The translations under genes and the position numbers were made by a program. From the NCBI GenBank assembly GCA_902763505.1, contig CACWSO010000001.1, positions 124,001 through 188,000 on the forward strand: a DNA stretch of 64,000 nucleotides. The letters run 5' to 3'. The number at the start of each line of letters is the position of its first letter. The stretch's first letter is position 1. Below, piece by piece: positions 4,687 through 42,611 of this stretch. The DNA is from an uncultured Eubacteriales bacterium (GTDB lineage Bacteria; Bacillota; Clostridia; Peptostreptococcales; Anaerovoracaceae). The notes under the pieces were generated by a model. That model saw only the letters and a list, made by a program, of their open reading frames with translations. It was not told the origin of the DNA and did not search any database.

Positions 4687-4687
4687 T

Positions 4688-5050
4688 ATGAACGTATATG
4701 ATCAGGCACACCAGCTTGCAACTGCAATCAAAGAATCAGAAGAGTGCAAGCAGTACACAGAAGTGAGAAAAAAACTGGAAGCCAATCCGGAACTGGATTC
4801 TGCAGTTAAGGATTTCATGAAAAAACAGTTTGAATTTCAGACAAACCAGATGATGGGGAACGAGATCGATCAGGAGGAGTTTATGAAACTCCAGCAGCTG
4901 AGTGCAGTTCTCATGCAGGATCCTCTGACCAGTGAATATTTTCAGTGTCAGATGCGTTTCAGCACAATGATGTCTGATGTTTACAAAATCGTGGGCGATG
5001 CGGCAGACTTCGGTCTGGGTCCTATGGGCGGCATCGGCGACATGATGTAG
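4688..5050 (+). CDS. YlbF-family regulator (DUF964)
   Basis: A 120-residue mostly helical protein of the YlbF/YmcA family. In B. subtilis YlbF forms part of the Y-complex with YmcA and YaaT that steers RNase Y and affects competence and biofilm. The call rests on the family pattern: two amphipathic helices, the LEANPELDSAVKDF segment near 30-43, and a glycine/methionine-rich C-terminus. It starts one base after the RNase J stop, so it is almost certainly co-translated with that ribonuclease; sharing an operon with an RNase fits the RNA-decay role. Whether this paralogue equals YlbF or YmcA cannot be decided here. Confidence 0.85.
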   Translation: MNVYDQAHQLATAIKESEECKQYTEVRKKLEANPELDSAVKDFMKKQFEFQTNQMMGNEIDQEEFMKLQQLSAVLMQDPLTSEYFQCQMRFSTMMSDVYKIVGDAADFGLGPMGGIGDMM

Positions 5051-5055
5051 AGGAC

Positions 5056-5084
5056 TTGGCAATAAAACGCGAGTTTGTTATAAT
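5056..5084 (+). promoter_or_regulatory. Sigma-A promoter of efp
   Basis: TTGGCA at 5056-5061, a 17-base spacer, and a perfect TATAAT at 5079-5084. It lies about 60 bases ahead of efp and directly after the ylbF stop, so efp-mltG start a new transcription unit. Confidence 0.85.
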
Positions 5085-5145
5085 CAACAAAACAAAATAT
5101 GTTAAATCATTATTGATCATATAACACAAGAAAGGCGAGAAACTT

Positions 5146-5706
5146 ATGATTTATGCAGGTGATTTCAGAAAAGGTATTACATTTGAAATTGATGGCGATC
5201 CGCATGTTGTAATCGATTTCCAGCATGTAAAGCCTGGTAAGGGAGCTGCGTTTGTAAGAACGAAGCACAAGAACATCCTCACAGGTGCCATCAAGGAAGA
5301 GTCCTTCAATCCGGATGCTAAATTCCCGAAGGCTCATATTGAAACCAAGACGATGCAGTACCTCTATTCAGACGGAGAACTGTATTACTTCATGGACCCG
5401 GAAACTTATGATCAGATTCCGCTTTCACAGGATCAGGTCGAGGAAGCAATGAAGTATCTGAGAGAGAATGATGAAGCAACCATCAAGTTCTACAAAGGCA
5501 ACGCATTTCTCGTTGAGGCGCCTAACTTCGTAGATCTTCTCGTTACAGATACAGAACCCGGCGTAAAGGGTGATACCGCGACGAACGTAACAAAAGACGC
5601 TACCGTAGAAACAGGCGCTGTTGTAAAAGTTCCTATCTTCATCGAAGAAGGCGAGAGAATTCAGATCGATACAAGAACAGGAGAATATTTAGGGAGATCT
5701 AAATAA
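5146..5706 (+). CDS. efp: Elongation factor P
   Basis: EF-P rescues ribosomes stalled at consecutive prolines by entering between the P and E sites. The 186-residue protein has the three beta-barrel domains of the family: KOW-like N-domain, central OB domain and the C-terminal OB domain ending in the signature [21 protein letters not shown]. The tip loop of domain I reads KPGKGAAF, with lysine 32 at the site that is modified in other bacteria; no modifying enzyme (EpmA, EarP or YmfI) was found in this window. The stop codon overlaps the mltG start by one base. Confidence 0.98.
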
Positions 5707-10127: not shown

Positions 10128-10477
10128 TGGAAGACGAAAAAGACATTGTAACGGTATCTGACGACGTGCTAGCCGTATGTGCCATCAATGCGACGCTGAA
10201 GACAGAAGGCGTAGCCGAGATGGCCGGGGGTATCAAAAATACCCTCAGCAAAAGCATTCTAGGCAAGGAACATGTATCAAAAGGGGCCAAAGTAACACAA
10301 AACAATGGCCAGATTTCCATTGATCTGCATGTCATCGTTACATATGGATGCAAAATCCCTCAGGTGGCCTGGGACATACAGGACAATGTTAAGAATGAAA
10401 TACGCAGTATGACCAATCAGAAACTCAATGCGGTAAACATCCATGTGGAAGGAGTAAAGAGAAATGACCAGGAATGA
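10127..10477 (+). CDS. Asp23/Gls24 family protein (YqhY-like)
   Basis: A 116-residue Asp23-family protein. The family block GVAEMAGGI lies near residues 25-33 and the HVIVTYGCKIPQVAWDIQDNVK stretch occupies about 66-87. In Firmicutes YqhY sits between the acetyl-CoA carboxylase genes and nusB, and mutations there disturb acetyl-CoA carboxylase activity; here the nusB side of that arrangement is kept but accBC is absent from the window. The reading frame overlaps nusB by 14 bases. Confidence 0.9.
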   Translation: MEDEKDIVTVSDDVLAVCAINATLKTEGVAEMAGGIKNTLSKSILGKEHVSKGAKVTQNNGQISIDLHVIVTYGCKIPQVAWDIQDNVKNEIRSMTNQKLNAVNIHVEGVKRNDQE

Positions 10478-30179: not shown

Positions 30180-30899
30180 TTAGTCTATATATAACTCTGC
30201 AATCAGTCCATGCTCTCCGGTTCTTCTTCCGCCAAACGCTTCTGATGTGCGAACAGGCATGCCTTCCGGTTTATCGCCCGTTACTGCACCGCTGCCGATT
30301 ACCATGGCCAATCCGGACGGTGTGACCATTTCTCCTTCATATTCAGTCTGCTTGTAACTGAGATCGCAGTCGTCCAGCATCGCCTTTACTGCAGGTACCG
30401 GTACATTCAGAACTCCATGGGCGCATTTCACTGTTCCGTGTCCATCACAGATGTCAGAAACGATTACAGTATCCGCATGCAGTTCATTCAGACAAACCGC
30501 AACGCCGACGACATTGGCAATCGCCTGATCACGGCCTACTTCATGGAAATGAAGCTCTTCCAGGGAATCGCCATGTACGGTTGATTCAGCCTTTGCGATC
30601 ACCGCATAGATCTGCTGCGCAGCAGCTTTTACACCGCTGCTGACGTCGATTGATTCAATGATATGCTTCACATCGCTGTAGCTGCGGTGAAAGTGTTCGT
30701 GAACGTGTTCATCATGGTTGTGAACATGATCATGATCATGTTCATGATCGTGCTGATGTTCATGGGATGCTCCAATCTGATGGCTGATTCTGTGTATTTC
30801 AGATCGAACCGCCTGAGGATCTTCGTTCAGATCGATTAGGGCATTCAGCACCATATCACCGCTGACACCGTTTTCACAATTCAAATATATTTTCTTCAT
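30180..30899 (-). CDS. LarC1-like protein with histidine-rich insert
   Basis: A 239-residue relative of LarC, the enzyme that inserts nickel into the pincer cofactor of lactate racemase. The LarC signature is complete: the opening GVSGDMVLNALIDL, the central LHFHEVGRDQAIANVVG near 118-134 and the later VTPSGLAMVIG. An insert of about 28 residues near 44-71 holds more than ten histidines in a repeated HEHDHDH pattern and should bind nickel or zinc. It corresponds only to the N-terminal half (LarC1) of LarC; the CTP-binding C-terminal LarC2 domain is missing. It follows another LarC1-like gene by 15 bases. Confidence 0.8.
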   Translation of the reverse strand: MKKIYLNCENGVSGDMVLNALIDLNEDPQAVRSEIHRISHQIGASHEHQHDHEHDHDHVHNHDEHVHEHFHRSYSDVKHIIESIDVSSGVKAAAQQIYAVIAKAESTVHGDSLEELHFHEVGRDQAIANVVGVAVCLNELHADTVIVSDICDGHGTVKCAHGVLNVPVPAVKAMLDDCDLSYKQTEYEGEMVTPSGLAMVIGSGAVTGDKPEGMPVRTSEAFGGRRTGEHGLIAELYID

Positions 30900-30914
30900 G
30901 TTATGTTTTCTCCG

Positions 30915-31682
30915 TTATTTCGTTTCAGCAAGCATCACTGTCATCGGCGGAAGCCCAGTATCACGTTTTCCGGTACCTCTGCCAATGGCGCTTTGATTTA
31001 CGTCTTTCCAGGCTTGTTCAAAAGCATCCTCCTCCAGAAAACGATCAACGACTCCTGCCAGGACGGATGCACCTGTCGGCGTCAGCAGCTCCTGCTCGAT
31101 ATCAGAACGGTAATGCGGAATCCCTGTATTTCTCAATATGGCGGCTGTCGCAGGTGCTGGTACCGGAAGTGTTCCCCATGCACACTGCACCGTTCCAAAT
31201 CCCGTAGGGACAGGTGTGGAAACCACGGTGTCTGCACTGATGTAATCTAAACATATCGCAGCTCCTACAATGTCCACGATGGAGTCCACTGCTCCCACTT
31301 CATGGAACTGCACCTCATCAACAGGCACACCATGGGCTTCTGATTCCGCAATTGCCTTGATGTCAAAGATCTGACGGCTCAAATTCTTCGCATGATCATT
31401 GAGATCAGACCGCCCAATCATCTCCTTGATTTCTCCATAGTTCCGGAATTTGCCGCTGTAGGGGTGAATCCAAGCGTTTTCTTTATTATAAAGGATCACA
31501 TCGACATCTGTTACCGGTGATCCATTGTATTCTTTTTCATTTACTGACAGCTCAAACTCATTGAGTCCAAGACTTGCCAGTCCCTTCTCCAGAACATCTA
31601 AAGGGACACCAAGAGACAGCATTGCCCCCAGTGTCATATCCCCGCTTGCTCCGGATCTGCAATCGATAAATAGCGTCTTCAT
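30915..31682 (-). CDS. LarC1-like protein
   Basis: A 255-residue LarC1-type protein without a histidine-rich insert. It contains the opening GASGDMTLGAMLSLG, the VQFHEVGAVDSIVDIVG motif near 123-139 and the TPTGASVLAGV block near 205. It too stops before the LarC2 domain. No larA, larB or larE lies in the window, so it is uncertain whether the pair serves lactate racemase or another nickel (or other metal) enzyme. It is the first gene of the operon and has no strong ribosome site (the ATG comes about 18 bases after the start of transcription). Confidence 0.8.
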   Translation of the reverse strand: MKTLFIDCRSGASGDMTLGAMLSLGVPLDVLEKGLASLGLNEFELSVNEKEYNGSPVTDVDVILYNKENAWIHPYSGKFRNYGEIKEMIGRSDLNDHAKNLSRQIFDIKAIAESEAHGVPVDEVQFHEVGAVDSIVDIVGAAICLDYISADTVVSTPVPTGFGTVQCAWGTLPVPAPATAAILRNTGIPHYRSDIEQELLTPTGASVLAGVVDRFLEEDAFEQAWKDVNQSAIGRGTGKRDTGLPPMTVMLAETK

Positions 31683-31792: not shown

Positions 31793-32734
31793 TTACAGTC
31801 TGTCCAGTGCTTTTGCAACCTTGATCAAACCTTCGGTCAGGTTCTTTCTGGATGCTGCGATTTCTTCTTCTGTCCATTCCTGGAAGCCCTTGCCCGTCTT
31901 GAATCCCAGGTCTCCCTTTTCGACCTTTTCAACAAGAAGCTTGGACGGTTCCGTTGAATTCTCAATATGTGGGAACAGATATTTGTGAATGGAATAAGTC
32001 AGATCCACGCCTGCATTGTCGATGACTTCCATTGGAGCCATCACGCCAAGACGCATACCGAATCCGTACTTGATCGCATCATCAACATCCTTCGCATCAG
32101 CGATGTCGTTTTCAACGATGGAAATTGCTTCTCTGAACAGCGCATGCTGCAGTCTGTTAGCCAGGAATCCCGGTACGTCTTTTTTGACCAGAACCGGCTT
32201 CTTTCCTGCTCCTTCAAGGAGTTCAAACATAGCCTTTTCGGTCTCTTCTGAAACGTACTTTGTACGGATCACTTCTACCAGTGGAATCAGATAAGCCGGA
32301 TTCCAATAGTGCGTTCCGATGATTCTTTCCTTATGTACTGATTTTTCAGCGATTTCCGTAATGCTGATAGCAGATGTGTTGGAAGCAAGAATCGTCGACG
32401 GCGGACACAGTTCGTCCAATGTCTTGAAGTAGTCCTGCTTTACTGCCAGATTCTCAACGATACATTCGAAGATAACATCTGCAAATTCCGCTGCTTCCTT
32501 CAGATCTTCTGTAAAGCTTACGTTATTGATTGTCTCTTCGATCTGCGCTTCATCGATGACGCCCTGATCAACCAGAACCTGTAAATTGTTGCGCATGGTC
32601 TCTACTGGTTTTGCTCTTACTTTGTCATCATAGACATAAATCAGCATAACCTTGTGGCCCTTTGATGCAAAGAGCTGAGCGATACCAGTACCCATCATAC
32701 CTGCGCCTAAAACAGCAACATTTTTCTTTGCCAT
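31793..32734 (-). CDS. 3-Hydroxyacyl-CoA dehydrogenase family protein
   Basis: A 313-residue NAD-dependent dehydrogenase of the 3-hydroxybutyryl-CoA dehydrogenase family. The NAD-binding GxGxMGxG motif is VLGAGMMGTGIAQLFASKGH near residues 7-26; the catalytic serine/asparagine are in LASNTSAIS near 118 and the catalytic histidine is in GTHYWNPAYLIPLVEVI near 140. The usual enzyme is about 282 residues and reads GTHFFNP here; the GTHYWNP variant and longer C-terminus recall the branch of carnitine and gulonate dehydrogenases, which act on free 3-hydroxy acids. The ATG at 32734 is seven bases after GGAG. A sigma-54 promoter precedes it, making it part of the activator's regulon. Confidence 0.85.
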   Translation of the reverse strand: MAKKNVAVLGAGMMGTGIAQLFASKGHKVMLIYVYDDKVRAKPVETMRNNLQVLVDQGVIDEAQIEETINNVSFTEDLKEAAEFADVIFECIVENLAVKQDYFKTLDELCPPSTILASNTSAISITEIAEKSVHKERIIGTHYWNPAYLIPLVEVIRTKYVSEETEKAMFELLEGAGKKPVLVKKDVPGFLANRLQHALFREAISIVENDIADAKDVDDAIKYGFGMRLGVMAPMEVIDNAGVDLTYSIHKYLFPHIENSTEPSKLLVEKVEKGDLGFKTGKGFQEWTEEEIAASRKNLTEGLIKVAKALDRL

Positions 32735-32807
32735 AATCAAACTCCGTTTTTCTTAATTCAATAAACTATATACGTACTTTGTTGAAAATGAATTATTAAT
32801 ATAAATA

Positions 32808-32822
32808 GCAAATGCTGTGCCA
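32808..32822 (-). promoter_or_regulatory. Sigma-54 promoter of the dehydrogenase gene
   Basis: On the minus strand the sequence TTGGCACAGCATTTGCT fits the consensus TGGCAC-N5-TTGC with exactly ten bases between GG and GC. Transcription would begin near 32797, about 63 bases before the dehydrogenase ATG. Confidence 0.88.
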
Positions 32823-32887
32823 ATTCTTCTACCTGATTATACCCTTGTTTACACAGCAAATTCATGTAATATCGTATCAAAAATGGA

Positions 32888-32921
32888 TTTGTTGCAACAA
32901 ATTGTTGCTAATGTGCAACAA
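32888..32921. promoter_or_regulatory. Operator pair for the sigma-54 activator
   Basis: A perfect 14-bp palindrome, TTTGTTGCAACAAA (32888-32901), is directly followed by TTGTTGC-N6-GCAACAA (32902-32921). The second dyad recurs exactly, spacer length included, at 41338-41357. Its centre is about 114 bases upstream of the start point of the dehydrogenase promoter, where sigma-54 activators usually bind, and it could also control the activator's own promoter. Confidence 0.8.
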
Positions 32922-32945
32922 ACAGCTTTCTTTTAACAGATTATC

Positions 32946-32954
32946 TGCTATAAT
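32946..32954 (+). promoter_or_regulatory. Extended -10 promoter of the activator gene
   Basis: TGCTATAAT is an extended -10 element; the -35 region (CTTTCT) is weak. The operators above lie just upstream, so self-control is plausible. The 261-base gap 32735-32995 thus contains two divergent promoters and the operators. Confidence 0.6.
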
Positions 32955-32995
32955 AAAAAAACTTGAATGTGAGAAAACACAATGAGGAGGACATC

Positions 32996-34531
32996 ATGGA
33001 TCAGGCACTGGCCATCAAGATAATTCAGAATAAAATCAATACCGCCTTGGAACAGAGCGATACATCAAACCCGTCCGAATGCCGTGCCCTTCTGCAGGAA
33101 ATTGCATCGGATTTGAATGTATTTCTGTCGGAAGGCATCGATTACAAACTCGTCGTGGATAACTTAGATGAGAGTATCTTCATAACCGATAAAGATGGTA
33201 AGGTTCTCTATGTCAACCCCGCCTATGAAAACAATACCGGCATACTGCGTGAAGAAGTGTTAGGCAGAACGGTTCAGGATATTCTTGAAGAAGGAAAGCT
33301 CTTTAGCGGCGGCGCAACACTTGATGTGATCAAAATGAAAAAACGCGTCTTCAGATTGTCCACCATCTTGAAAACAGAGCCCCATCACACAGGTTATGCA
33401 ATTGGCGTTCCTATCTTTGATGGGGATGGCGAACTGTCTCAGGTTGTTGTAAGCAGCCGCCCTATTTTCACGCTGCGTGAGCTGCAAAACGATTATCATC
33501 GCTTTCTTGATGAAGTAACTTTCATTAATGAGCAGAAAGAACTCGTTAAGCTTTTTGAAAATGCGGGACAGATCCCGATATCAGATAATCTGATTGGATC
33601 CTCCCCTGCCCTGCAGAAGGTATATGAACTTGTGCAGAAAGTCGCACCTACGGATGCAAGCGTTATGCTTACCGGTGAATCCGGTGTTGGTAAAGAAATC
33701 GTAGCCGATGAAATCTATAAACTGGGTCCAAGGAAAGATAAGCCGTTTGTAAAAGTCAATTGTGCATCTATTCCCTCAAATCTATTGGAATCGGAACTCT
33801 TCGGTTATGAAAAAGGTGCGTTCACTGGTGCAAATGCTTCCGGTAAACGTGGACTATTTGAAATGGCCAACCACGGCACGCTGCTTTTGGATGAGATTGG
33901 TGATATGCCGCTGGATCTGCAGGTCAAACTGTTGAGGGCCATCCAAAACAAAGAAATCACCCATGTTGGCGGTACAAAGCCGATTCCACTGGATATTCGG
34001 TTCATTTCCTCTACAAATTCAGACTTAAATAAAAAAATCGAGGAAGGCACCTTCAGGCGTGATTTATTCTACCGTCTCAGTGTCATCCCGATTCATATCC
34101 CACCGCTTCGGGATCGTACGGAAGATCTGGAAGAACTTTGCAACCACTTCATCAGTATCTTCGGCGAACACCATGGCCACAGAATTCATTTGCTTCCGGA
34201 ACATCTGAATCTGATGAAACGGTACAACTGGCCGGGCAACATCCGTGAATTGGAAAATGTCATTGAATATCTCACCATCTGCAGTTCCGGAACAGGATAT
34301 ATAGATACGGATATGCTCCAGGGTCTGCTGAATATTACAGATATCGATGAACAGAATGTGAACGACGCCTCCCTGGCGGAGTCCATGGAACAGTATGAGA
34401 TCGCGCAGATTGAGAATGCGCTGGCCAATTCACACAATCTGCGTGAAGCCGGAAAAATCCTCGGTGTCAACGCATCTACAGTATCCCGTAAAATCAAACA
34501 GTATGGAATCCCTTATCCAAAGAGCAAATAA
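32996..34531 (+). CDS. Sigma-54-dependent transcriptional activator with PAS domain
   Basis: A 511-residue enhancer-binding protein. An N-terminal helical stretch leads into a PAS sensor (about 50-165, VDNLDESIFITDKDGKVLYVNPAYEN), then the AAA+ domain with Walker A GESGVGKE near 229, the GAFTGA sigma-54 contact loop near 273 and Walker B LLLDEIGD near 293. A C-terminal helix-turn-helix follows (LREAGKILGVNASTVSRKIKQYG, about 481-503) of the TyrR/PrdR-like kind. The start is the ATG after GAGGAGGAC. Divergent from the dehydrogenase gene and next to its own operators, it is the likely regulator of all three sigma-54 units in 31.8-42.6 kb. The signal sensed by PAS is unknown. Confidence 0.93.
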   Translation: MDQALAIKIIQNKINTALEQSDTSNPSECRALLQEIASDLNVFLSEGIDYKLVVDNLDESIFITDKDGKVLYVNPAYENNTGILREEVLGRTVQDILEEGKLFSGGATLDVIKMKKRVFRLSTILKTEPHHTGYAIGVPIFDGDGELSQVVVSSRPIFTLRELQNDYHRFLDEVTFINEQKELVKLFENAGQIPISDNLIGSSPALQKVYELVQKVAPTDASVMLTGESGVGKEIVADEIYKLGPRKDKPFVKVNCASIPSNLLESELFGYEKGAFTGANASGKRGLFEMANHGTLLLDEIGDMPLDLQVKLLRAIQNKEITHVGGTKPIPLDIRFISSTNSDLNKKIEEGTFRRDLFYRLSVIPIHIPPLRDRTEDLEELCNHFISIFGEHHGHRIHLLPEHLNLMKRYNWPGNIRELENVIEYLTICSSGTGYIDTDMLQGLLNITDIDEQNVNDASLAESMEQYEIAQIENALANSHNLREAGKILGVNASTVSRKIKQYGIPYPKSK

Positions 34532-34558
34532 TCACCAATTCAAATAATCCATGACATT

Positions 34559-34601
34559 AAAAAAACCGCTGCACCGAGTTGATACTCAATGCAGCGGTTT
34601 T
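34559..34601. terminator. Bidirectional terminator between the activator and cyclase genes
   Basis: ACCGCTGCA/TGCAGCGGT (34565-34573 with 34590-34598) with an inner GAGT/ACTC pairing; flanked by seven A on one side and TTTT on the other, so it serves both convergent genes. Confidence 0.85.
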
Positions 34602-34634
34602 GCTTTTGCAATTAATGTTTACACATTATGTAGA

Positions 34635-35552
34635 TTAATATACGCCGTAAGGATATTCCTTGTCCGGAACGCTCTTGTCGATTCTGTCTGATGGAACGAA
34701 TGCAACGGCTCTTACGATGGTACCGTCTCCCATGTACCAGCGAAGTGGGAACGCACAGAACAGGAATCTCTGATTCTTAACTTTATCCAGATCGCCGCCC
34801 AGGTTCTCAATACCCATAACGTTATGAGCAAGTAAGATGTCGTGGCATGGTTCCCACTCAGGGAAATCTTCCTCGATCGGATGTCCGGCCATTTCTTCGT
34901 ACTCTTCTACAATACGAGGAACATATGGGCCAGGGCCGTGCTTGCCGCCGTAGGTGTAAAGGAAGTGGTCAATGGCCTGCATATCGAAGCCAACGCCTCT
35001 TACCTTATGCTCTACGAACCACCAGGCTCCTTCGATGGAAAGTCCAGGGCTGTATCCGAAGTAATCTTCGTTCTCACCCCAGCGTCTGTGAGTACCTGTA
35101 TTCAGCAGTACCCAGTCACCTTCTTTGATTCCGCCTGGAACCTTCTTGGCTGCTTCTTCAATCTCTTCAACTGTGATCATCTCCCACTTGCCCTTAGGGA
35201 TGTCCAGACATACAGCTTCACCAAAGTAGTTCTGGATCGGCAGTTCATGAGTGAATGGACTCTCTGGAATTACATGTGACGGAGAATCGGCATGGGTTGA
35301 GTTGTGCATGTGGAATGAATTGAAGGTCTGCAGAAGTCTGTAATGCATTGGCATATGCTGGACTCTGTCAATGTGGAAGTCTCCGTTGGACGGCCAAAGC
35401 GGATTGCCTCTTCCGAATGGGTTGGAGAGGTCCAGAAGTTCGAACTGTCCATCTTTGAACATATCGAAAATGCTGCCGTCATAAGGCTTCTTCCAGTCAT
35501 ATGTGTGCGCATAATTCTCTTCACGCGTGTGTCTCTCATAAATTTCTGACAT
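34635..35552 (-). CDS. Cyclase-family hydrolase (kynurenine formamidase-like)
   Basis: A 305-residue protein of Pfam Cyclase (PF04199), a metal-dependent family whose members hydrolyse amides, lactams or lactones (kynurenine formamidase, isatin hydrolase). The metal-binding HxxTHxDxPxH motif reads HNSTHADSPSH near residues 82-92; the family's later histidine/aspartate residues are present. At 305 it is longer than the ~210 kynurenine formamidases and like the longer bacterial cyclases. It is the last gene of the sigma-54 operon. It may open a ring or amide at the head of the pathway; the substrate cannot be read from the sequence. Confidence 0.82.
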   Translation of the reverse strand: MSEIYERHTREENYAHTYDWKKPYDGSIFDMFKDGQFELLDLSNPFGRGNPLWPSNGDFHIDRVQHMPMHYRLLQTFNSFHMHNSTHADSPSHVIPESPFTHELPIQNYFGEAVCLDIPKGKWEMITVEEIEEAAKKVPGGIKEGDWVLLNTGTHRRWGENEDYFGYSPGLSIEGAWWFVEHKVRGVGFDMQAIDHFLYTYGGKHGPGPYVPRIVEEYEEMAGHPIEEDFPEWEPCHDILLAHNVMGIENLGGDLDKVKNQRFLFCAFPLRWYMGDGTIVRAVAFVPSDRIDKSVPDKEYPYGVY

Positions 35553-35576
35553 AGTTTGTTCTCCTTTCTAACATAA

Positions 35577-36098
35577 CTATATTCTGACGATTCTTCCCTG
35601 TTTGCGCTCTGGCGCCGGTGGAAGATCGCCTTCTCTGTATCCCAGGATACAGTTTCCGATACCTACGAAGCTGTCGCCGATGCCCCATTTAGCCTTCAGC
35701 GCTTTGCCTTCTTCCGTTTCGAAGACTTCTTTGGCTCTGTGGACCCAACATGAATCCACGCCTTCAGAAAAGGCTGCCAACATCATGTTTCCAATGACAA
35801 GACTACCATCTTCGACAGGAGTGGCTGTTTCAGCTGCATCTGCAAAGACAACGACTACAGTCGGTGCTCCATAGAACGGATCGATATCCATGCCCATGAC
35901 TTTGGCGTTAAGACCGCTCATGACAGCAATGGTTTCCGGATCCTGTACAGGTACGATTACGGTTGACTGTGATCCCATTCCACTTGCGGCGTATGTGCCG
36001 GCTTCCAGAATGGCATCCAGCTGCGCATCTTTGATCTGGTCATTCTTATATGCTCTGATGCTGCGTCTTTCCTTCATGTTTTTAATTACTTCGTTCAT
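35577..36098 (-). CDS. Nitroreductase-family FMN oxidoreductase
   Basis: A 173-residue FMN-dependent protein. The N-terminal RRSIRAYKNDQIKDAQLDAILEAG block binds the FMN phosphate, and the C-terminal FVGIGNCILGYREG stretch is also typical. The ATG at 36098 follows AAAGGAT; an upstream TTG is in frame but lacks a ribosome site. Nitroreductase folds also carry out enone, flavin or thioester-related reductions; the real reaction here is unknown. It follows the BKACE gene in the operon. Confidence 0.85.
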   Translation of the reverse strand: MNEVIKNMKERRSIRAYKNDQIKDAQLDAILEAGTYAASGMGSQSTVIVPVQDPETIAVMSGLNAKVMGMDIDPFYGAPTVVVVFADAAETATPVEDGSLVIGNMMLAAFSEGVDSCWVHRAKEVFETEEGKALKAKWGIGDSFVGIGNCILGYREGDLPPAPERKQGRIVRI

Positions 36099-36125
36099 TG
36101 TTGTATCCTTTTCACCCAATGTGAT

Positions 36126-36971
36126 TTACACTCCAAGAATCTCTCTGGCTTCTTCCGGAGTAGCTGGTTCTTTGCCCATCTCTCTGGCAATACGAACTAC
36201 TCTGGCGATGAACTGTTCATTGGATTCTGCCAGAACGCCCTTGTTGTAGTAGACATTATCCTCAAGACCTACACGGACGTTGCCGCCCATGGCGATACCG
36301 GAAAGCAGGATTTCATTGGCTCCTCTGCCGATGCCGAACGTACTCCATGTACAATCTTCCGGCAGATGATTTACCAGGTAAACCAGATTCTCTGTTGTGG
36401 CTTCCATTCCTCCCGGTGCACCGAGACAAAGCTGGAAGTGAGCCGGTCCCTTGATAATACCCTTCTTCAGATAATACTTAGCAGTATTGAGCATGCCCAT
36501 ATCAAAGACTTCGATCTCCGGTTTGACATTCACTTCCTGCATGACTTCTCCGCACTTTTCGAGGAAGCCAGGCTCATTCATGAACACGACAGTATTGAGC
36601 CAGTTCATGGTACCTGCATCAAAGGATGCCATTTCCGGTTTCAGTTCCTTGAATGGTTTGATACGCTCATCCCAGCTGAATCCCTGACCGCCTGAGGAGG
36701 TCAGGTTGATGATTCCAGGGAAGTTTCCATCACGCAGCTTCGTAACGATTTCTTCAAACCGATCGAAGCGCATGCTTGCGGTATCGTCCTCGTTTCTGAC
36801 ATGAATGTGAACACAGGCAGCGCCTGCCTCATAGCATTTCCATGCAGATTCTACGATTTCGTCCGGTTGTGTCGGCAGTGCCGGGTTGTCTTTTTTTGTC
36901 GTGACAGCTCCGGTCAGAGCCGCTGAAATAATGATTTTATCTTTATGATTTGATCTTCTAGTATCGAACAT
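36126..36971 (-). CDS. Beta-keto acid cleavage enzyme (BKACE, Kce-like)
   Basis: BKACE enzymes (DUF849) condense a beta-keto acid with acetyl-CoA to give acetoacetate and a new acyl-CoA. Kce of lysine fermentation is the best known. The 281-residue protein has the opening IISAALTGAVTTKKDNPALP, the zinc-binding HIHVR near residue 47-51, LTSSGGQG near 91 and GLEDNVYYNKG near 232-242, all typical. Which beta-keto acid is used cannot be read; lysine-fermentation neighbours (kamA, kdd, kal) are absent. A thiolase gene is directly upstream in the operon, 40 bases away. Confidence 0.87.
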   Translation of the reverse strand: MFDTRRSNHKDKIIISAALTGAVTTKKDNPALPTQPDEIVESAWKCYEAGAACVHIHVRNEDDTASMRFDRFEEIVTKLRDGNFPGIINLTSSGGQGFSWDERIKPFKELKPEMASFDAGTMNWLNTVVFMNEPGFLEKCGEVMQEVNVKPEIEVFDMGMLNTAKYYLKKGIIKGPAHFQLCLGAPGGMEATTENLVYLVNHLPEDCTWSTFGIGRGANEILLSGIAMGGNVRVGLEDNVYYNKGVLAESNEQFIARVVRIAREMGKEPATPEEAREILGV

Positions 36972-37010
36972 TATGATACTTCCTTTCTTAGCGAATAAAG
37001 TGGTTCCCGT

Positions 37011-38189
37011 CTAAACCATTTCGACAAGAACTGCGACACCCATACCGCCGCCGGCGCACAGCGTCGCAATACCGTACTTCTGGTCTCTTCTCTTAAGCTC
37101 GTGAACCAGAGTGACTACCAGTCTTGCTCCTGTTGCACCTACCGGATGTCCAATGGAGATACCTCCGCCGTTGACATTCAGCTTATCGATATCGATACCT
37201 AAATCTCTCTGGCATGCCAGGCACTGTGCCGCGAAAGCTTCGTTCATCTCCCAGAGGTCGATATCATCGACTGTGAGACCGGCTTTCTTCAGAACTTTTC
37301 TCGATGCTCCAATCGGACCAAGACCCATGTAATCAGGGTCGAGACCAACAGCACCAACGGAAAGAACGCGTGCGATGATCGGAACGCCCAGTTCCTTCGC
37401 TTTGTCTTCATTCATCAGAAGTACGCCGGATGCAGCATCATTCATACCGGAAGAGTTACCGGCAGTAACCTTACCGTCTTCTTTGAATGTTGCCTTCAGC
37501 TTGCCAAGTTTCTCCAGTGAAGTATCCCTTCTCGGGAACTCATCAGTATCACAGACAGTATCGCCCTTCTTGCCTTTGATGGTAATTGGAACGATTTCGT
37601 CCTTGAACTTGCCAGCATCGATTGCTGCAACAGCACGCTGGTGGCTCTGCAGAGCATATGCGTCCATTTCTTCTCTGGTGATGCCATAACGCTCCGCTAC
37701 GTTCTCGGCTGTGATGCCCATTGCTGGACCGACGCCCAGATTCGTGAAGGAGTCCCACATGGAGTCACGAAGCTCCATGTGGCCGTACTTCTTTCCATAA
37801 CGTGCGTCGAAAACCATGTGTGGCGCAGTGCTCATACTGTCAGCACCGCCGGCCATGATGCAGTCTGCCTCTCCAGCTGCAATCTGGTAAAAACCAAACT
37901 GGATAGATGAAAGTGAAGAGGTGCAGTTCCTATGAATGGTGATACCAGGAACGCTCTCAGGCAAACCTGCCTTTACTGCGGCTACACGTGCCAGATTGTT
38001 TTCTTTGTATGTTCTCTGGTAGTTGCATCCCCAGATGACATCTTCGATGATCTCAGGATCGACGCCGGAACGCTTTATGAGTTCCTGCATAATCGGAATA
38101 GACAAATCCAACGATGTGATGGTCTTGTACATTCCGCCCAGGGCTCCGACTGCCGTTCTGCAAGCCGCTACGATTACTACGTTATTCAT
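37011..38189 (-). CDS. Thiolase (acetyl-CoA C-acyltransferase)
   Basis: A 392-residue thiolase. The nucleophilic cysteine is C89 in HRNCTSSLSS; the second cysteine is in CAGGGMG near 380 and the histidine in GHPVGATGAR near 346. The block around the first cysteine differs from the usual NKVCGSG. It can split a 3-ketoacyl-CoA with CoA, or run in reverse. In this operon it probably processes the ketoacyl-CoA derived from BKACE products; no CoA transferase or ligase is present to feed it. Confidence 0.9.
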   Translation of the reverse strand: MNNVVIVAACRTAVGALGGMYKTITSLDLSIPIMQELIKRSGVDPEIIEDVIWGCNYQRTYKENNLARVAAVKAGLPESVPGITIHRNCTSSLSSIQFGFYQIAAGEADCIMAGGADSMSTAPHMVFDARYGKKYGHMELRDSMWDSFTNLGVGPAMGITAENVAERYGITREEMDAYALQSHQRAVAAIDAGKFKDEIVPITIKGKKGDTVCDTDEFPRRDTSLEKLGKLKATFKEDGKVTAGNSSGMNDAASGVLLMNEDKAKELGVPIIARVLSVGAVGLDPDYMGLGPIGASRKVLKKAGLTVDDIDLWEMNEAFAAQCLACQRDLGIDIDKLNVNGGGISIGHPVGATGARLVVTLVHELKRRDQKYGIATLCAGGGMGVAVLVEMV

Positions 38190-38220
38190 TACGATAGTCC
38201 TTCCTATTTATTGCTTTTGC

Positions 38221-39564
38221 TTAGCCTTCAAGATGTTCGCCTGTAACTTCTTCTTCCTTCGCATAGTCCAGATTGTACTTTCTGGTGTTGAGTATGGAGA
38301 TCAGGATGAAGTTGATGATCAGCAGACCGATGAATACTACATAAGCTCCTCTCAGTGAGCCGGTAACTCTCAGTGCTGTAGCATTTACGATGTAGTTCAG
38401 CATGAGAACAACCTGCATGATTGGGAAGTAGATGGAGTATACGATATCGAAGCTGTGACGTCCGAATACGGATGCCGGCAGTGAAGTCATGAAGTTTGCT
38501 GCTGCGCCGATTGCTACACCGATCATTGCTACGCAGATGTAACCGCCTGTCATGTTGTTGAACAGTACGTTAACTGCCAGTGCAACCATGTACCAGAGCA
38601 GGAACGCTCTTACTGCAGTCTTAACGCCCAGTTTCTGGTCGATGAAACCAAATGCGAATGATCCGGCAAGACCGATCAGTGCGCATACAGTCATCAGAGC
38701 GATGGCCTTGTTCGGCTCGAATCCGAGCTCGATGTTTCTAGGAACGAGCTGTGACATTACACCTGTTGTTACCATCTGGTTGATACCGATGATCAGAGCA
38801 ACGATCCACATTTCCTTTGTCTTAAGAAGGTCTTTCACTGTCCATCTTGCAGGAGCATCATTTGACATGTCTGCATATTCTCTGTCATATACGTCCTGTG
38901 TAACGTTATCAGGCAGCTGACCCATCTCCTGAGGAGTGTTCTTGATGATGAAGATTGCGATGAACGCAATAACGATAGCTGCAATACCAGTGATTGTCAT
39001 GCCTTTGCCCATGCCGTAAGCACCGATCAGGAATGCGATGAGCGGTACATAAAGGGCTGAACCGAGGTTGTGGCCCATTGTAGTAAATCCATTAGCAAGT
39101 CCCTTCTTCTTAGGCATCCACTGAGTTACCAGGTTTCCGCCGCCCAGGTAAGCTGCTGCATTGATGAATACAGTAACCAGAGTCAGGCCTGCGAAATAAG
39201 TTCCCAGTGTTGTTGAGTGACCATAGAAGATGTAGGATAAACCAGCCAGTGCCAGACATACGACTGACAGCCACTTTGCGCCGATCTTAGTGAGGATACG
39301 GCCGATAACAAAGTATGCTACTACGCCGATGAATCCAGCCCACATTGCCAGTTCAAGCAGTTTTGCGTGGAGGAGTGTAGGATCAGTGTATCCCAGCTCC
39401 TGCCAGTGTGCATTAACAAATACGTCGATGACGATATTCTGTCCGTCGATTGAGAAACCAATCAGGAACCAGAACATGATCATGCTGTAAAAGATGATGA
39501 TCCAGCCTTTACCAAAGTTCACTTTGGTGTTTTCGGACTGGAGCTGCTGTCCATTCTGTGACAT
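38221..39564 (-). CDS. MFS transporter, oxalate/formate antiporter-like
   Basis: A 447-residue membrane protein with twelve hydrophobic segments in two groups of six separated by a polar loop (about 205-235). Its long first extracytoplasmic loop, the GRILTKIGAKW loop between segments 2 and 3, and the WMPKKKGLANGFTTMGHNLGSALY stretch near 148-171 fit the OFA family of carboxylate carriers. It probably brings in the organic acid handled by this operon; the actual substrate is unknown. Position: after the 87-residue gene and before the thiolase gene. Confidence 0.85.
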   Translation of the reverse strand: MSQNGQQLQSENTKVNFGKGWIIIFYSMIMFWFLIGFSIDGQNIVIDVFVNAHWQELGYTDPTLLHAKLLELAMWAGFIGVVAYFVIGRILTKIGAKWLSVVCLALAGLSYIFYGHSTTLGTYFAGLTLVTVFINAAAYLGGGNLVTQWMPKKKGLANGFTTMGHNLGSALYVPLIAFLIGAYGMGKGMTITGIAAIVIAFIAIFIIKNTPQEMGQLPDNVTQDVYDREYADMSNDAPARWTVKDLLKTKEMWIVALIIGINQMVTTGVMSQLVPRNIELGFEPNKAIALMTVCALIGLAGSFAFGFIDQKLGVKTAVRAFLLWYMVALAVNVLFNNMTGGYICVAMIGVAIGAAANFMTSLPASVFGRHSFDIVYSIYFPIMQVVLMLNYIVNATALRVTGSLRGAYVVFIGLLIINFILISILNTRKYNLDYAKEEEVTGEHLEG

Positions 39565-39600
39565 AATTATTTCTCCTTAAATGATTAGTAATGATAACTT

Positions 39601-39864
39601 TTATGCTCCAAAGGCTTCGTCGGTTGCTGCTTTGACCATTTCATCCCAAGTCTCATATTCAGTGCTCTCCTTGACGAAGTTGTTGAATACGGTCTGGGAA
39701 TACACGAGTCTAGGGGAATCCCATGACGCCATAACGGCGCTGGAATAGCGGAAGCCCTCGAAATTCTTAAAATTGGTATGCTTCTGCATGAACTCGTCGC
39801 TGAAGATCTTATTCAGAAGGTCTTTCAGCTCCTGTGTGTAGTTAATAGAAACATAATCGTTCAT
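39601..39864 (-). CDS. Small conserved-looking protein of unknown function
   Basis: An 87-residue soluble protein I do not recognise. It is acidic at the C-terminus (ESTEYETWDEMVKAATDEAFGA) and rich in aromatic residues (Phe, Tyr and Trp in the middle). It overlaps the DUF362 stop by one base (TAATG), so the two are translationally coupled and may form a complex. It has no signal peptide, cysteine motif or membrane segment. Nothing in the sequence suggests a specific fold. Confidence 0.7.
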   Translation of the reverse strand: MNDYVSINYTQELKDLLNKIFSDEFMQKHTNFKNFEGFRYSSAVMASWDSPRLVYSQTVFNNFVKESTEYETWDEMVKAATDEAFGA

Positions 39865-41150
39865 TATTTGCTCTCCGGATGTTCTTTGAAGTACTCTTCT
39901 GCCTTTGCAAATACGTAGTCATGCCATACCTGAGCGTCTCTTGCCATGCAAGGTCTGATGATTTCATCTTCCTGATCGCCCATTCCGTTGATGATCTCTT
40001 TTCTCTGTATTGTCAGATAAAGAGCCGGTTCGTTTGGAGGGCATCCCAGGATCCAATATGCATTTGGATGATCCTTCAGGTACTTCTTCGTGCAGTTGCC
40101 ATGGAGAACGAGTTTGTCGTCAGGAATGTCCTTAGGAATATCGTTCTGCGGTCCAATAACAACTGTCATTCCTGCATTCTTGTCATATTCGCCGACTGCC
40201 TTCAGCTCTTCCATGTTGATAGCGAGCAGTGCCTGACAACTGGAGCATCCGCCTTCGCAGCGTACATCGTACTCAGGCCATCTTGTGCTCATGTCACCGA
40301 TGTAAGGGATCCACATCTGCTTGAAGCATTCTTCTACCGTGTTTCCTACTACTTCGATGTCATCCAGATCATACTTTCCAAGACCTACTTCCTTAGCTAC
40401 GTTGAAGTAATCTACAGCAGTAGTATCGATTCCTGTTACTTCGCATGCGATTCTGTCGATTGCTACAGGGTCCTTTGATCCGAGTACCATGTTGGATTCG
40501 ATTGGAACCGGCATGTGCGGTGAGTAACCGGATGCTGCTCTCATAGCGTCCATGATGTTGAGATCAGCCTTACATACAGACCAAACGTCCATCATAGCCA
40601 TCGTCAGATTCTGCTGATGCATCTGCATATGAACCTTATCCTGTACAACGCCCTTGATGTTCTTCAGTGCGCCTGAGAATACCATGCTTGCATGTGCCTT
40701 GAGGATCGGCAGGTTGATGAGATGCTCTGCTTCCATGAGTCTCTTCGGCAGCTTAACGTGTGAGATATTGGATCTGAAGTCTCTTACAGCAACATTTACG
40801 AGATCCTTATCTCTCTTGATGTCGTAAGTTTCAACGCCTTCTTCATCGGCTACTGCCTGGATTCCGCTGACCTTGAAGCATTCAATCGTATCGCATCCGA
40901 TAGCTGCTGCTTCGGCGATAACGATTTCCTTAGGGTTAGCTTTTCTGACCTCTCTGATGACCGCTCTGACAACTTCAGGATTTGTGCAAACTGAAGTTTC
41001 TGGTGGTTCAGCGTGGCCGACATTCGGCTTGATCATAACGGTTGTGCCCGGTCTGATCACGTTTTCAACGCCGCCCAAAAGGTCAAATACTTTGGTAACG
41101 TTAGCCTGTACGTCTTCACCCTTTACGAGTGCTACTAAAGATTTTGACAT
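39864..41150 (-). CDS. DUF362-domain protein
   Basis: A 428-residue cytoplasmic protein of DUF362 (PF04015), a family with no firmly assigned reaction that I know of. The conserved core VMIKPNVGHAEPP near 37-49 and LPILKAHASMVFSGALKNIKGVVQDK near 150-175 is present. Later cysteines form a CEGGCSSCQ cluster near 293-301 plus HGNC and GCPP, possibly Fe-S ligands. It is not LarA (DUF2088). The ATG at 41150 follows AGAGGTG; a longer frame upstream would begin at the start of transcription. First gene of the sigma-54 operon, about 61 bases below its promoter. Confidence 0.85.
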   Translation of the reverse strand: MSKSLVALVKGEDVQANVTKVFDLLGGVENVIRPGTTVMIKPNVGHAEPPETSVCTNPEVVRAVIREVRKANPKEIVIAEAAAIGCDTIECFKVSGIQAVADEEGVETYDIKRDKDLVNVAVRDFRSNISHVKLPKRLMEAEHLINLPILKAHASMVFSGALKNIKGVVQDKVHMQMHQQNLTMAMMDVWSVCKADLNIMDAMRAASGYSPHMPVPIESNMVLGSKDPVAIDRIACEVTGIDTTAVDYFNVAKEVGLGKYDLDDIEVVGNTVEECFKQMWIPYIGDMSTRWPEYDVRCEGGCSSCQALLAINMEELKAVGEYDKNAGMTVVIGPQNDIPKDIPDDKLVLHGNCTKKYLKDHPNAYWILGCPPNEPALYLTIQRKEIINGMGDQEDEIIRPCMARDAQVWHDYVFAKAEEYFKEHPESK

Positions 41151-41222
41151 AAGTTCACCTCTTTGCTTTCTGGGTTTCCTTAGAAATAATTGACTGTTCA
41201 TTTTCAACATCTTTTATTAATC

Positions 41223-41237
41223 GCAATATCTATGCCA
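41223..41237 (-). promoter_or_regulatory. Sigma-54 promoter of the DUF362-cyclase operon
   Basis: On the minus strand TTTGGCATAGATATTGCGA matches TGGCAY-N5-TTGC with exactly ten bases between GG and GC. The gap 41151-41404 holds this promoter and the activator's sites and no gene. Confidence 0.88.
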
Positions 41238-41317
41238 AACGTTTTTTTCCAAGATTTCCGCAAAAACAATAAAAAATAATAAAAACAAGGGTATTATTTC
41301 CAAAATAATCACGTTTT

Positions 41318-41378
41318 TTGTTGCACAAAGCAAAAAGTTGTTGCATCTACGCAACAACCTTTTGCATCATTTATGCAA
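41318..41378. promoter_or_regulatory. Operator sites for the sigma-54 activator
   Basis: TTGTTGC-N6-GCAACAA at 41338-41357 is the same dyad as at 32902-32921. A half-site TTGTTGC lies at 41318-41324 and a weaker dyad, TTGCAT-N5-ATGCAA, at 41362-41378. The main dyad is about 136 bases upstream of the start point of the DUF362 operon. Confidence 0.8.
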
Positions 41379-41404
41379 TTTGAAATATAAAAGAGGTGTT
41401 ATGA

Positions 41405-42550
41405 TCAAAATGCCTGTTCCAGTATAGCAATGACATCTTCTTTGGTGATGCCCTGACGAGGATTGAAGCCCAGCACCGGCTCATTGAGCACGTCATGAGC
41501 GAGCATATCGAAATCCTCCTTTGAGATTCCCTGCTCTTCCAGTGTCTTGATTCCCAGTTTCTTTGTCAGATCAAGAAGCGCATCTGCAAGCAGGTATTTA
41601 TCCTTTTCAGGATCACCGCTGCCTGCAATACCGATTGCACCTGCAAGATCAGCCATCTTATCCGGACAGCTTTCAGCATTGTATCGCATAACATATGGCA
41701 AAACGCATGCGTTTGCCATGCCGTGTGCAAGACCGAAATGCGCACTGAGTGTATGGGCGATGCCGTGTACCAGCCCAAGATTTGCATTTGAGAAACTGAA
41801 GCCAGTGATAATGCAGCCCAGCATCATCTGTTCTCTGGCATCCATGTCATTCCCATCTTCACATACCTTAGGAAGGTTCTTATAGAGAATCTCCAATCCT
41901 TTCAGCGCATTGTACTCCGTCAGCGGCGTCGCCATGTTGGAGATATAACTTTCTACAGCATGCGTGATCGCATCCATACCTGTTGCTGCTGTTACGCTCT
42001 GTGGAACTGTTCTGGTCAATTCCGGGTCTGCAATCACATCTGTAGCAACGATATTGTTGTCTATGACAACATATTTGATGACCTTTTCTGTATCGATCAG
42101 AGCACTGACATTGGTGATTTCGCTTGATGTACCTGCCGTTGTTGGAATCGCAATCAGCGGAAGACAAGGATTCTTGACCATACCGATACCGCCGTACTCT
42201 CCTATCCTGCCCTCATTTGTCATCAGAACGTTTACTGCCTTTGCAAGGTCGATACTGGAACCACCGCCAACGGCAACAAATCCTTCCACGCCCGCATCTT
42301 TTGCAATGACAGCCGCTTCCTCAACCACATCGTTGGTCGGATTTGGAATGACGCCGTCAAAGATACAGTATGAAACACCGGTTTTTTCGACTTCGTTGAC
42401 CACTTTATCAGCAATCCCTGCTGCCTTCACACCACCGTCATATACAACCATGACGGAATTGAGATGATACCCCTTGATGATTTCTGATAAATCGTTCAAT
42501 GCTCCTCTGCCGAAATCGATGTTGCTCTTTACAAAAAAGTTGAAGCTCAT
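41405..42550 (-). CDS. Iron-containing alcohol dehydrogenase
   Basis: A 381-residue group III alcohol dehydrogenase. The NAD(P)-binding GGGSSIDLAKAV is near residues 95-106; the iron ligands lie in DPELT, GMDAITHAVE, LVHGIAHTL and LAHGMANA. It begins after GGAGGAA and stands 35 bases below a third sigma-54 promoter, so it is probably co-regulated with the BKACE operon. It may reduce an aldehyde or oxidise a hydroxy acid made there. Substrate not readable. Confidence 0.9.
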   Translation of the reverse strand: MSFNFFVKSNIDFGRGALNDLSEIIKGYHLNSVMVVYDGGVKAAGIADKVVNEVEKTGVSYCIFDGVIPNPTNDVVEEAAVIAKDAGVEGFVAVGGGSSIDLAKAVNVLMTNEGRIGEYGGIGMVKNPCLPLIAIPTTAGTSSEITNVSALIDTEKVIKYVVIDNNIVATDVIADPELTRTVPQSVTAATGMDAITHAVESYISNMATPLTEYNALKGLEILYKNLPKVCEDGNDMDAREQMMLGCIITGFSFSNANLGLVHGIAHTLSAHFGLAHGMANACVLPYVMRYNAESCPDKMADLAGAIGIAGSGDPEKDKYLLADALLDLTKKLGIKTLEEQGISKEDFDMLAHDVLNEPVLGFNPRQGITKEDVIAILEQAF

Positions 42551-42570
42551 AGTATTCCTCCATAAAAAAA

Positions 42571-42605
42571 GACTTTGCTTATGTATATGATAAAAAGCAA
42601 AGTCT
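42571..42605 (-). terminator. Terminator of ruvX overlapping a sigma-54 promoter
   Basis: On the minus strand AGACTTTGC pairs with GCAAAGTCT across an 18-base loop, followed by seven T. The first arm also contains the -12 element of the sigma-54 promoter of the alcohol dehydrogenase gene; transcripts from that promoter would begin inside the loop and escape the terminator. Confidence 0.78.
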
Positions 42606-42611
42606 ATGCCA
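42597..42611 (-). promoter_or_regulatory. Sigma-54 promoter of the alcohol dehydrogenase gene
   Basis: On the minus strand TTGGCATAGACTTTGC matches TGGCAY-N5-TTGC with ten bases between GG and GC. No activator dyad was found within the 200 bases upstream; the dyad at 41338 lies beyond the other end of the gene. Confidence 0.85.

Follow-up and report, generated by a model that had tools for sequence, protein, structure and literature searches.

A conserved sigma-54 regulon of gut Clostridia that looks like a paralogue of phloroglucinol degradation, with a DUF362 protein as candidate nickel-pincer nucleotide enzyme

Introduction

What do gut Clostridia break down with a gene set in which a DUF362 protein, a beta-keto acid cleavage enzyme (BKACE) and a sigma-54 activator stand together, and what might the DUF362 protein do there? 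The question arises from a 64,000-nucleotide stretch (the window; all positions below refer to it) of an uncultured Eubacteriales bacterium of the Anaerovoracaceae, positions 124,001 to 188,000 of contig CACWSO010000001.1 in GenBank assembly GCA_902763505.1, a genome of 2.29 Mb in 39 contigs. Our answer, to which we give a probability of about 0.5, is a substrate-induced sigma-54 regulon for fermenting a compound with a six-membered or similar ring, by a pathway paralogous to phloroglucinol degradation in which the DUF362 protein, with the nickel-pincer nucleotide (NPN), the cofactor of LarA, would take the first step. An initial annotation of the window had proposed a sigma-54 regulon for a beta-keto acid pathway. 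All ten genes that it named agree in call and family with Pfam and NCBIfam, and they are as follows.

31793..32740, minus strand: 3-hydroxyacyl-CoA dehydrogenase-like (3HCDH-like) protein, predicted for a free 3-hydroxy acid as in TfD (PF02737/PF00725; TfD catalytic residues kept, CoA-binding residues lost)
32963..34531, plus strand: PAS/AAA+ sigma-54 activator with GAFTGA loop (PF00158, 233 bits)
34635..35552, minus strand: cyclase-family hydrolase, predicted to open a ring (PF04199; sister clade of dihydrophloroglucinol cyclohydrolase, DPGC; 34% identical to that of E. ramulus)
35577..36119, minus strand: nitroreductase-family protein, accessory (PF00881)
36126..36971, minus strand: BKACE, predicted to convert a beta-keto acid and acetyl-CoA to an acyl-CoA and acetoacetate (PF05853, 347 bits)
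37011..38189, minus strand: thiolase, acetyl-CoA C-acyltransferase (TIGR01930, 478.7 against a cut-off of 240.6)
38221..39564, minus strand: MFS carrier, OFA/monocarboxylate-like (PF07690; weak matches, below cut-off, to lactate and oxalate carriers)
39601..39864, minus strand: 87-residue partner of DUF362, of no known family
39864..41210, minus strand: DUF362 protein of predicted LarA fold, candidate NPN enzyme (PF04015; H173, K183, H198)
41405..42550, minus strand: iron-containing alcohol dehydrogenase, Fe-ADH (PF00465/PF25137)

Sigma-54 promoters and activator sites

Promoters were sought with the strict pattern TGGCAY-N5-TTGC, with the reversed pattern as control. It matches the window three times only, with ten bases between GG and GC in each match, exactly at the minus-strand sites that had been claimed. 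Palindromes stand upstream of two of them.

32808..32822, minus strand: sigma-54 -24/-12 promoter of the 3HCDH-like gene, exact match TGGCACAGCATTTGC, one of 12 strict sites in the genome
41223..41237, minus strand: sigma-54 promoter of the operon running from DUF362 to the cyclase gene, exact match TGGCATAGATATTGC
42597..42611, minus strand: sigma-54 promoter of the Fe-ADH gene, exact match TGGCATAGACTTTGC, overlapping a terminator-like hairpin
32904..32919, no strand assigned: putative upstream activator site GTTGC-N6-GCAAC, recurring in many relatives
32887-32902: second palindrome, ATTTGTTG/CAACAAAT, beside the preceding site
41340..41355, no strand assigned: putative upstream activator site GTTGC-N6-GCAAC, recurring in relatives

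Genome-wide the strict pattern has 12 matches, 3 of them in the gene cluster, against 3 for the control. Three strict sites inside 10 kb, each 5' of a cluster gene and on the right strand, are far beyond chance. A loose scan allowing three mismatches gave 401 sites where chance alone predicts 449, so the strict match alone is informative. The GTTGC-N6-GCAAC palindrome is centred about 90-110 bases upstream of the DUF362 and 3HCDH promoters; genome-wide it occurs at these two window places and one other, and its reversed control at one place. The genome also encodes RpoN (211.7 bits) and six activator-type genes above 140 bits, and the GAFTGA activator lies between the units as described. Its closest named model is PrdR, at 395.9 against a cut-off of 795.

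RpoN, a GAFTGA activator and -24/-12 sites are thus all present, and the claim of one sigma-54 regulon stands to that extent; whether that activator also governs Fe-ADH is doubtful, as the Fe-ADH promoter has no palindrome upstream. At 42570-42611 the Fe-ADH promoter and an upstream terminator look fused: the sigma-54 site overlaps a hairpin (arms 42570-42580/42595-42605) with a T run behind it.

Conservation in relatives

Loci were collected with DUF362 as the sole query: 28 came from a contig search and 28 stretches from a family search, and the window and one E. ramulus stretch (L070; L and G numbers are our handles for loci and genomes) were added by hand. Five near-identical loci and five without DUF362 over threshold (L051, L052, L070, L110, L112) were dropped. 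The final set is 48 DUF362 loci including the window, two of which (L092 and L093) come from one genome.

The gene set recurs across these 48 loci and extends to DUF362 proteins only about 50% identical to that of the window. Beside DUF362 the 87-residue protein is encoded in 45 loci, the thiolase in 40, the activator in 36, the MFS carrier and the cyclase in 33 each, the 3HCDH-like enzyme in 32, BKACE in 22 and the nitroreductase in 8. Fe-ADH of the window's type is found in 6 and another kind in 21, hence either kind in at most 27. The exact form of the window cluster is complete in L025, L027 and L031. Carriers range from metagenome-assembled genomes of goat and roe deer gut to E. ramulus, and they include Hornefia butyriciproducens (L034, genome G011), of the same family as the window genome, NCBI placing Hornefia in Anaerovoracaceae. 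Two checks had been proposed with the initial annotation, co-occurrence of the genes in relatives and an rpoN gene in the genome; neither refuted it, since both were found.

The regulon, too, is conserved in relatives, as judged from recurrence of the putative signal pair at the DUF362 promoter. The 905,606 bases of 53 non-redundant loci contain 118 strict sites, 4 matches to the reversed pattern and 55 palindromes. A sigma-54 site lies within about 300 bases of 28 of 49 DUF362 genes, accompanied by the palindrome in 20; per-gene counts are rough, gene starts being derived from alignments. Strict sites precede 5 of 6 Fe-ADH genes of the window's kind and 9 of 21 of the other kind, and none of these (0/5 and 0/9) has the palindrome, so Fe-ADH, while linked to sigma-54, perhaps answers to a different control.

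An rpoN-like gene adjoins the cluster in L041, L044, L045, L046 and L051, the L044 copy scoring 426 against a cut-off of 277. In L112 (genome G208), near 10316, the DUF362 cluster has apparently been lost: a broken, 79%-identical piece is all that is left of it, with a sigma-54 site and palindrome retained and then a LarC gene.

Nickel-pincer nucleotide genes beside DUF362

The link between DUF362 and the genes for the nickel-pincer cofactor was missed by the initial annotation. Two larC genes (30180-31682) follow the 3HCDH-like gene, outside the interval that it covered.

30915..31682, minus strand: LarC-type protein 1 (NPN nickel insertion), N-terminal part only (TIGR00299, 174.3 against 90)
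30180..30899, minus strand: LarC-type protein 2, His-rich, N-terminal part only (TIGR00299, 141.2 against 90)

PF01969 has two matches in the window genome (best 2.0e-69), taken as these two genes. The tandem proteins match the LarC1 (N-terminal) part only, and a pair of short LarC matches is seen repeatedly among genomes of the family.

At least one NPN-synthesis gene (larB, larC or larE) is found in 28 of the 48 loci, LarC in 24, LarB in 10 and LarE in 6; the examples tested score above NCBIfam cut-offs. Several bear the promoter signals of the cluster itself: a sigma-54 site precedes 8 of 28 LarC and 4 of 10 LarB genes, with the palindrome as well at LarB of L037 and LarC of L097. Genome G033 carries larB, larC and larE twice, once at 1.99-2.00 Mb and once within the DUF362 cluster (2.887-2.896 Mb). 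In G030 the cluster includes LarB, LarC and the sole LarE of the genome (25-31 kb), and a further LarB and LarC lie outside it. In E. ramulus, DUF362 and two activator genes are followed by LarB, a metal-sensing repressor and LarC; ahead of the second cyclase stands an ABC transporter of nickel type (NikA-like, 365.8 bits against a cut-off of 600). As a small control, three phloroglucinol-cluster stretches (L072-L074) held no open reading frame (ORF) with a Lar protein as best match.

These genes have no evident LarA nearby to serve. Five LarA queries found none in the DUF362 loci at E <= 1e-5. LarB and LarE are present in all 12 genomes tested, as is LarC, and among the matches listed for these the only Lar_N domain over cut-off was the window genome's own (a LarA, C5).

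LarC occurs in 34 of 36 DUF362 genomes, two of the 36 (G202, G208) counted as carriers for broken DUF362 pieces only, against 214 of 313 family genomes without this DUF362 (Fisher P 0.0007). We rejected this as proof of NPN use, since the table ignores relatedness and the background is high; the case therefore rests on neighbourhood and shared promoters.

The DUF362 protein

DUF362 and LarA (DUF2088) belong to the same Pfam clan, CL0471, in the available text of PMC11770544, and the structure model of the window protein has the predicted LarA fold. H173, K183 and H198 align with the second catalytic His, the NPN-tethering Lys and the nickel-ligand His of LarA, and K183 and H198 are invariant in 20 of 20 DUF362 sequences. 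Four Cys residues are invariant as well (C322-x2-C325, C373, C390). The window protein has no Lar_N (PF09861) match, its only Pfam matches at E <= 0.001 being to DUF362, and no meaningful hit came from searching its sequence among solved structures (best E 0.017). The 87-residue partner has no Pfam or NCBIfam match; its model is confident (pLDDT 94.7) and finds no match in the PDB at E <= 0.001, which is no proof of a new fold.

A number of results speak against a DUF362-NPN first step or against the pathway around it. By sequence profile DUF362 matches LarA weakly (hhalign E 0.037, probability 1.4), the DUF362 model has pLDDT <50 around K183, and H173, K183 and H198 also occur in 2 of the 3 ordinary DUF362 paralogues looked at. 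Of the two catalytic His residues only the second has its counterpart in H173; the presumed first (the GSHR His) lies opposite an invariant Asp107. Some LarA homologues also lack one catalytic His, but there it is the second one (PMC12393405, available text). The NPN-contacting Asp and Arg of LarA have no clear DUF362 counterpart, hhalign placing them opposite G65 and E68 beside a gap. Twenty of 48 loci show no Lar gene in the fetched stretch, and only 3 of 11 divergent DUF362 loci have one, several being short contigs. The window larC pair has its own sigma-70-like promoter and may be driven by it. LarC has the high background given above, and a Lar_N match is missing from at least 118 of the LarC genomes (248 versus 130), so other reasons for NPN genes exist. 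Finally, BKACE is absent from 26 and the cyclase from 15 of the 48 loci.

Given the LarC background, the loci without Lar genes and larC's own promoter, we put NPN use by DUF362, as suggested by alignment and gene neighbourhood, at about even odds. The fuller proposal, that DUF362 and its 87-residue partner form a second NPN enzyme family, acting by hidden transfer of a hydride, on a ring polyol or a ketone derived from a phenol and not on a 2-hydroxy acid, as the entry step of a regulon that makes its own cofactor, is more tentative and falls somewhat short of that.

The strongest alternative is that DUF362 makes no use of NPN and carries an iron-sulfur cluster on its four Cys residues, the Lar genes serving LarA or some other protein. 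DUF362 has indeed been described in iron-sulfur proteins (PMC5742341, PMC7955657, available text), LarC is widespread without this DUF362, and the window genome has a LarA. Against it stand the extra Lar genes inside the cluster in G030 and G033, the lack of LarA within the loci, the cluster's own promoter signals at Lar genes in several genomes, and the conservation of the presumed NPN-ligand residues. Of the 12 genomes in which LarB and LarE were looked for, moreover, 11 have no LarA over the cut-off among the matches listed. An iron-sulfur cluster and NPN could also coexist. We regard this alternative as rather unlikely, though it is the best of the three considered here. In the available text of four papers DUF362 appears as an outgroup, an iron-sulfur-protein domain or a chance match, with no function given (PMC11770544, PMC5742341, PMC7955657, PMC10892978), and the NPN enzymes of described activity, in the text available, are of the LarA superfamily and act on 2-hydroxy acids. 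The literature searched, with subscription papers mostly outside it, listed no report of a link between DUF362 and the nickel-pincer cofactor.

Relation to phloroglucinol degradation

The phloroglucinol cluster of C. scatologenes encodes PGR, DPGC (a cyclase-family C-C hydrolase), TfD (a 3HCDH-like dehydrogenase for a free hydroxy acid), TAL (a BKACE-family lyase), a thiolase, an MFS carrier and a regulator (PMC10470551, available text). The initial annotation called the window pathway unidentified; in kind it is not wholly so, as every family of that published cluster but PGR is present here in the same association. Ring opening, oxidation of a free 3-hydroxy acid, BKACE cleavage and thiolysis remain the best reading of the enzymes.

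Could it simply be the phloroglucinol pathway, with DUF362 and the 87-residue protein (or Fe-ADH or the nitroreductase) in place of PGR and with dihydrophloroglucinol, 3-hydroxy-5-oxohexanoate and triacetate as intermediates? The downstream families are the same, and PGR was not found in the window genome, Hornefia or G122 (best matches 28-31% identical, 31% in the window genome) by the same search that found PGRs of 60-100% identity in four genomes. TfD residue numbers follow PMC10470551, and by alignment the window 3HCDH keeps the catalytic His, Ser and Asn. It has lost the CoA-binding Lys56 and Asn221, as placed in the reference Hbd by what we take to be its numbering. In E. ramulus a gene of the DAPG/phloretin-hydrolase family (L070:13706-14503) is found close to the second cyclase cluster.

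Set against this, the counterparts differ. Between the window cyclase, 3HCDH and BKACE and their equivalents in PGR clusters the identity is 34-49%. Window-type cyclases form their own clade, sister to DPGC (support 100/100), as do the BKACEs (100/99); as labels came from the best BLAST match, separation is what the trees test, and the labels are not independent. The 3HCDH tree is not clean (4 label changes), partly from short pieces and the inclusion of Hbd-like rows. Of DPGC Trp20/Tyr22 the window cyclase keeps the Trp and has Ser for Tyr22, and the position of TAL Trp16, which is also that of Kce Glu14, is Val in the window BKACE.

Both systems also occur together. PGR is found alongside the DUF362 gene in G001, G003, G004 and G033, where the two would be redundant. 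E. ramulus keeps its PGR cluster (L072) apart from a second cluster (L070) with a cyclase 90% identical to that of the window, its DPGC being 34% identical; both kinds of cyclase, one of each, are found in E. ramulus, C. scindens and C. thailandense. Phloroglucinol degradation was therefore dropped as the identity of the pathway, as these three and G033 hold PGR besides the DUF362 system, and we consider it improbable. From the separate clades and the two kinds of cyclase kept side by side, the pathway looks like a paralogue or sister of phloroglucinol degradation for another ring compound.

An amino-acid route, with BKACE acting on an amino- or acylamino-beta-keto acid of the lysine or beta-lysine type, is highly improbable: Kce is the closest named model of the BKACE, at 316.6 bits against a cut-off of 382, but the Glu14 that binds the amino group in Kce (PMC10470551, available text) is Val, no aminomutase was recognised by eye among ORFs of 26000-48000 (no genome search was made), and an aminomutase query matched 1 of 48 loci, L029, which encodes lysine 5,6-aminomutase alpha (3963-5519; 908.7 bits against a cut-off of 600) a few kb upstream of its DUF362 cluster. 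The exclusion of the Kce lysine pathway in the initial annotation is thus borne out; its suggested substrates, carnitine derivatives and lactams, are not, the 3HCDH-like protein reaching 147.5 and 130.2 bits with carnitine dehydrogenase models that require 592 and 414, and nothing else pointing to them.

Proposed pathway

For the paralogous ring pathway we envisage the following steps. The substrate would be taken up by the MFS carrier and first converted by DUF362 and its 87-residue partner, in an NPN-borne hidden redox step that shifts a hydride inside the substrate; Fe-ADH and, in the window lineage, the nitroreductase would be accessory redox enzymes. The cyclase-family enzyme would open the ring by C-C hydrolysis to a free 3-hydroxy acid, which the 3HCDH-like enzyme would oxidise to a beta-keto acid; BKACE would cleave this with acetyl-CoA to acetoacetate and an acyl-CoA, and the thiolase would perform a final thiolysis. 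The PAS/AAA+ activator would bind GTTGC-N6-GCAAC and open the sigma-54 promoters. A strong terminator (34562..34601, minus strand; 18-pair stem and T run) closes the long operon.

An AbfD-like gene (4-hydroxybutyryl-CoA dehydratase) in 13 loci, 8 with a sigma-54 site, suggests that the acyl-CoA product may carry a terminal hydroxyl or lead to a hydroxylated C4 product; no single ring compound can be derived from it. The L033 copy scores 803.9 bits to 1u8v, and the others were called by similarity to it. NCS2-type (nucleobase-like) permeases lie in or beside the operon in L103, L105, L106, L071 and L043 (the last by eye), a possible hint at the substrate, for example a nucleobase-like one.

With such a pathway, flavonoid-degrading gut bacteria would have two ring-opening routes, the second probably yielding short-chain fatty acids in the end. 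The tie with larB, larC and larE in one regulon would give the DUF362 family a testable function, and if it is true the wider family may hold many more NPN enzymes; for specialists this link would be the surprising part. Several carriers are named isolates (E. ramulus, Catenibacillus scindens, Hornefia butyriciproducens), so that growth and RNA-seq offer a way to look for the substrate.

Comparison with known systems

With lysine fermentation through Kce the window shares a BKACE-family enzyme and acetoacetate as predicted product; its BKACE falls below the Kce equivalog cut-off and lacks the amino-binding Glu14.

The regulon resembles what we take to be the arrangement of PrdR and the prd-type sigma-54 regulons, a PAS-AAA+ activator beside its target operons, -24/-12 promoters and upstream palindromes. 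It differs in an activator below the PrdR cut-off, in its target genes and in the linkage of rpoN itself in several genomes.

Compared with LarA, the spacing of the His, Lys and His residues of DUF362 is 10 and 15 residues, against 10 and 16 for the NPN ligands, while DUF362 adds the four-Cys motif and an 87-residue partner.

The closest relative remains the phloroglucinol cluster. It is set apart by PGR, which the window genome lacks, by separate cyclase and BKACE clades with changed pocket residues, and by the DUF362, 87-residue, larB/C/E, Fe-ADH and AbfD genes and sigma-54 control that the DUF362 system adds. The two have in common cyclase-family, 3HCDH-like, BKACE, thiolase, MFS and regulator genes in the same association, the predicted oxidation of a free 3-hydroxy acid followed by BKACE cleavage with acetyl-CoA, and some of the same flavonoid-degrading bacteria.

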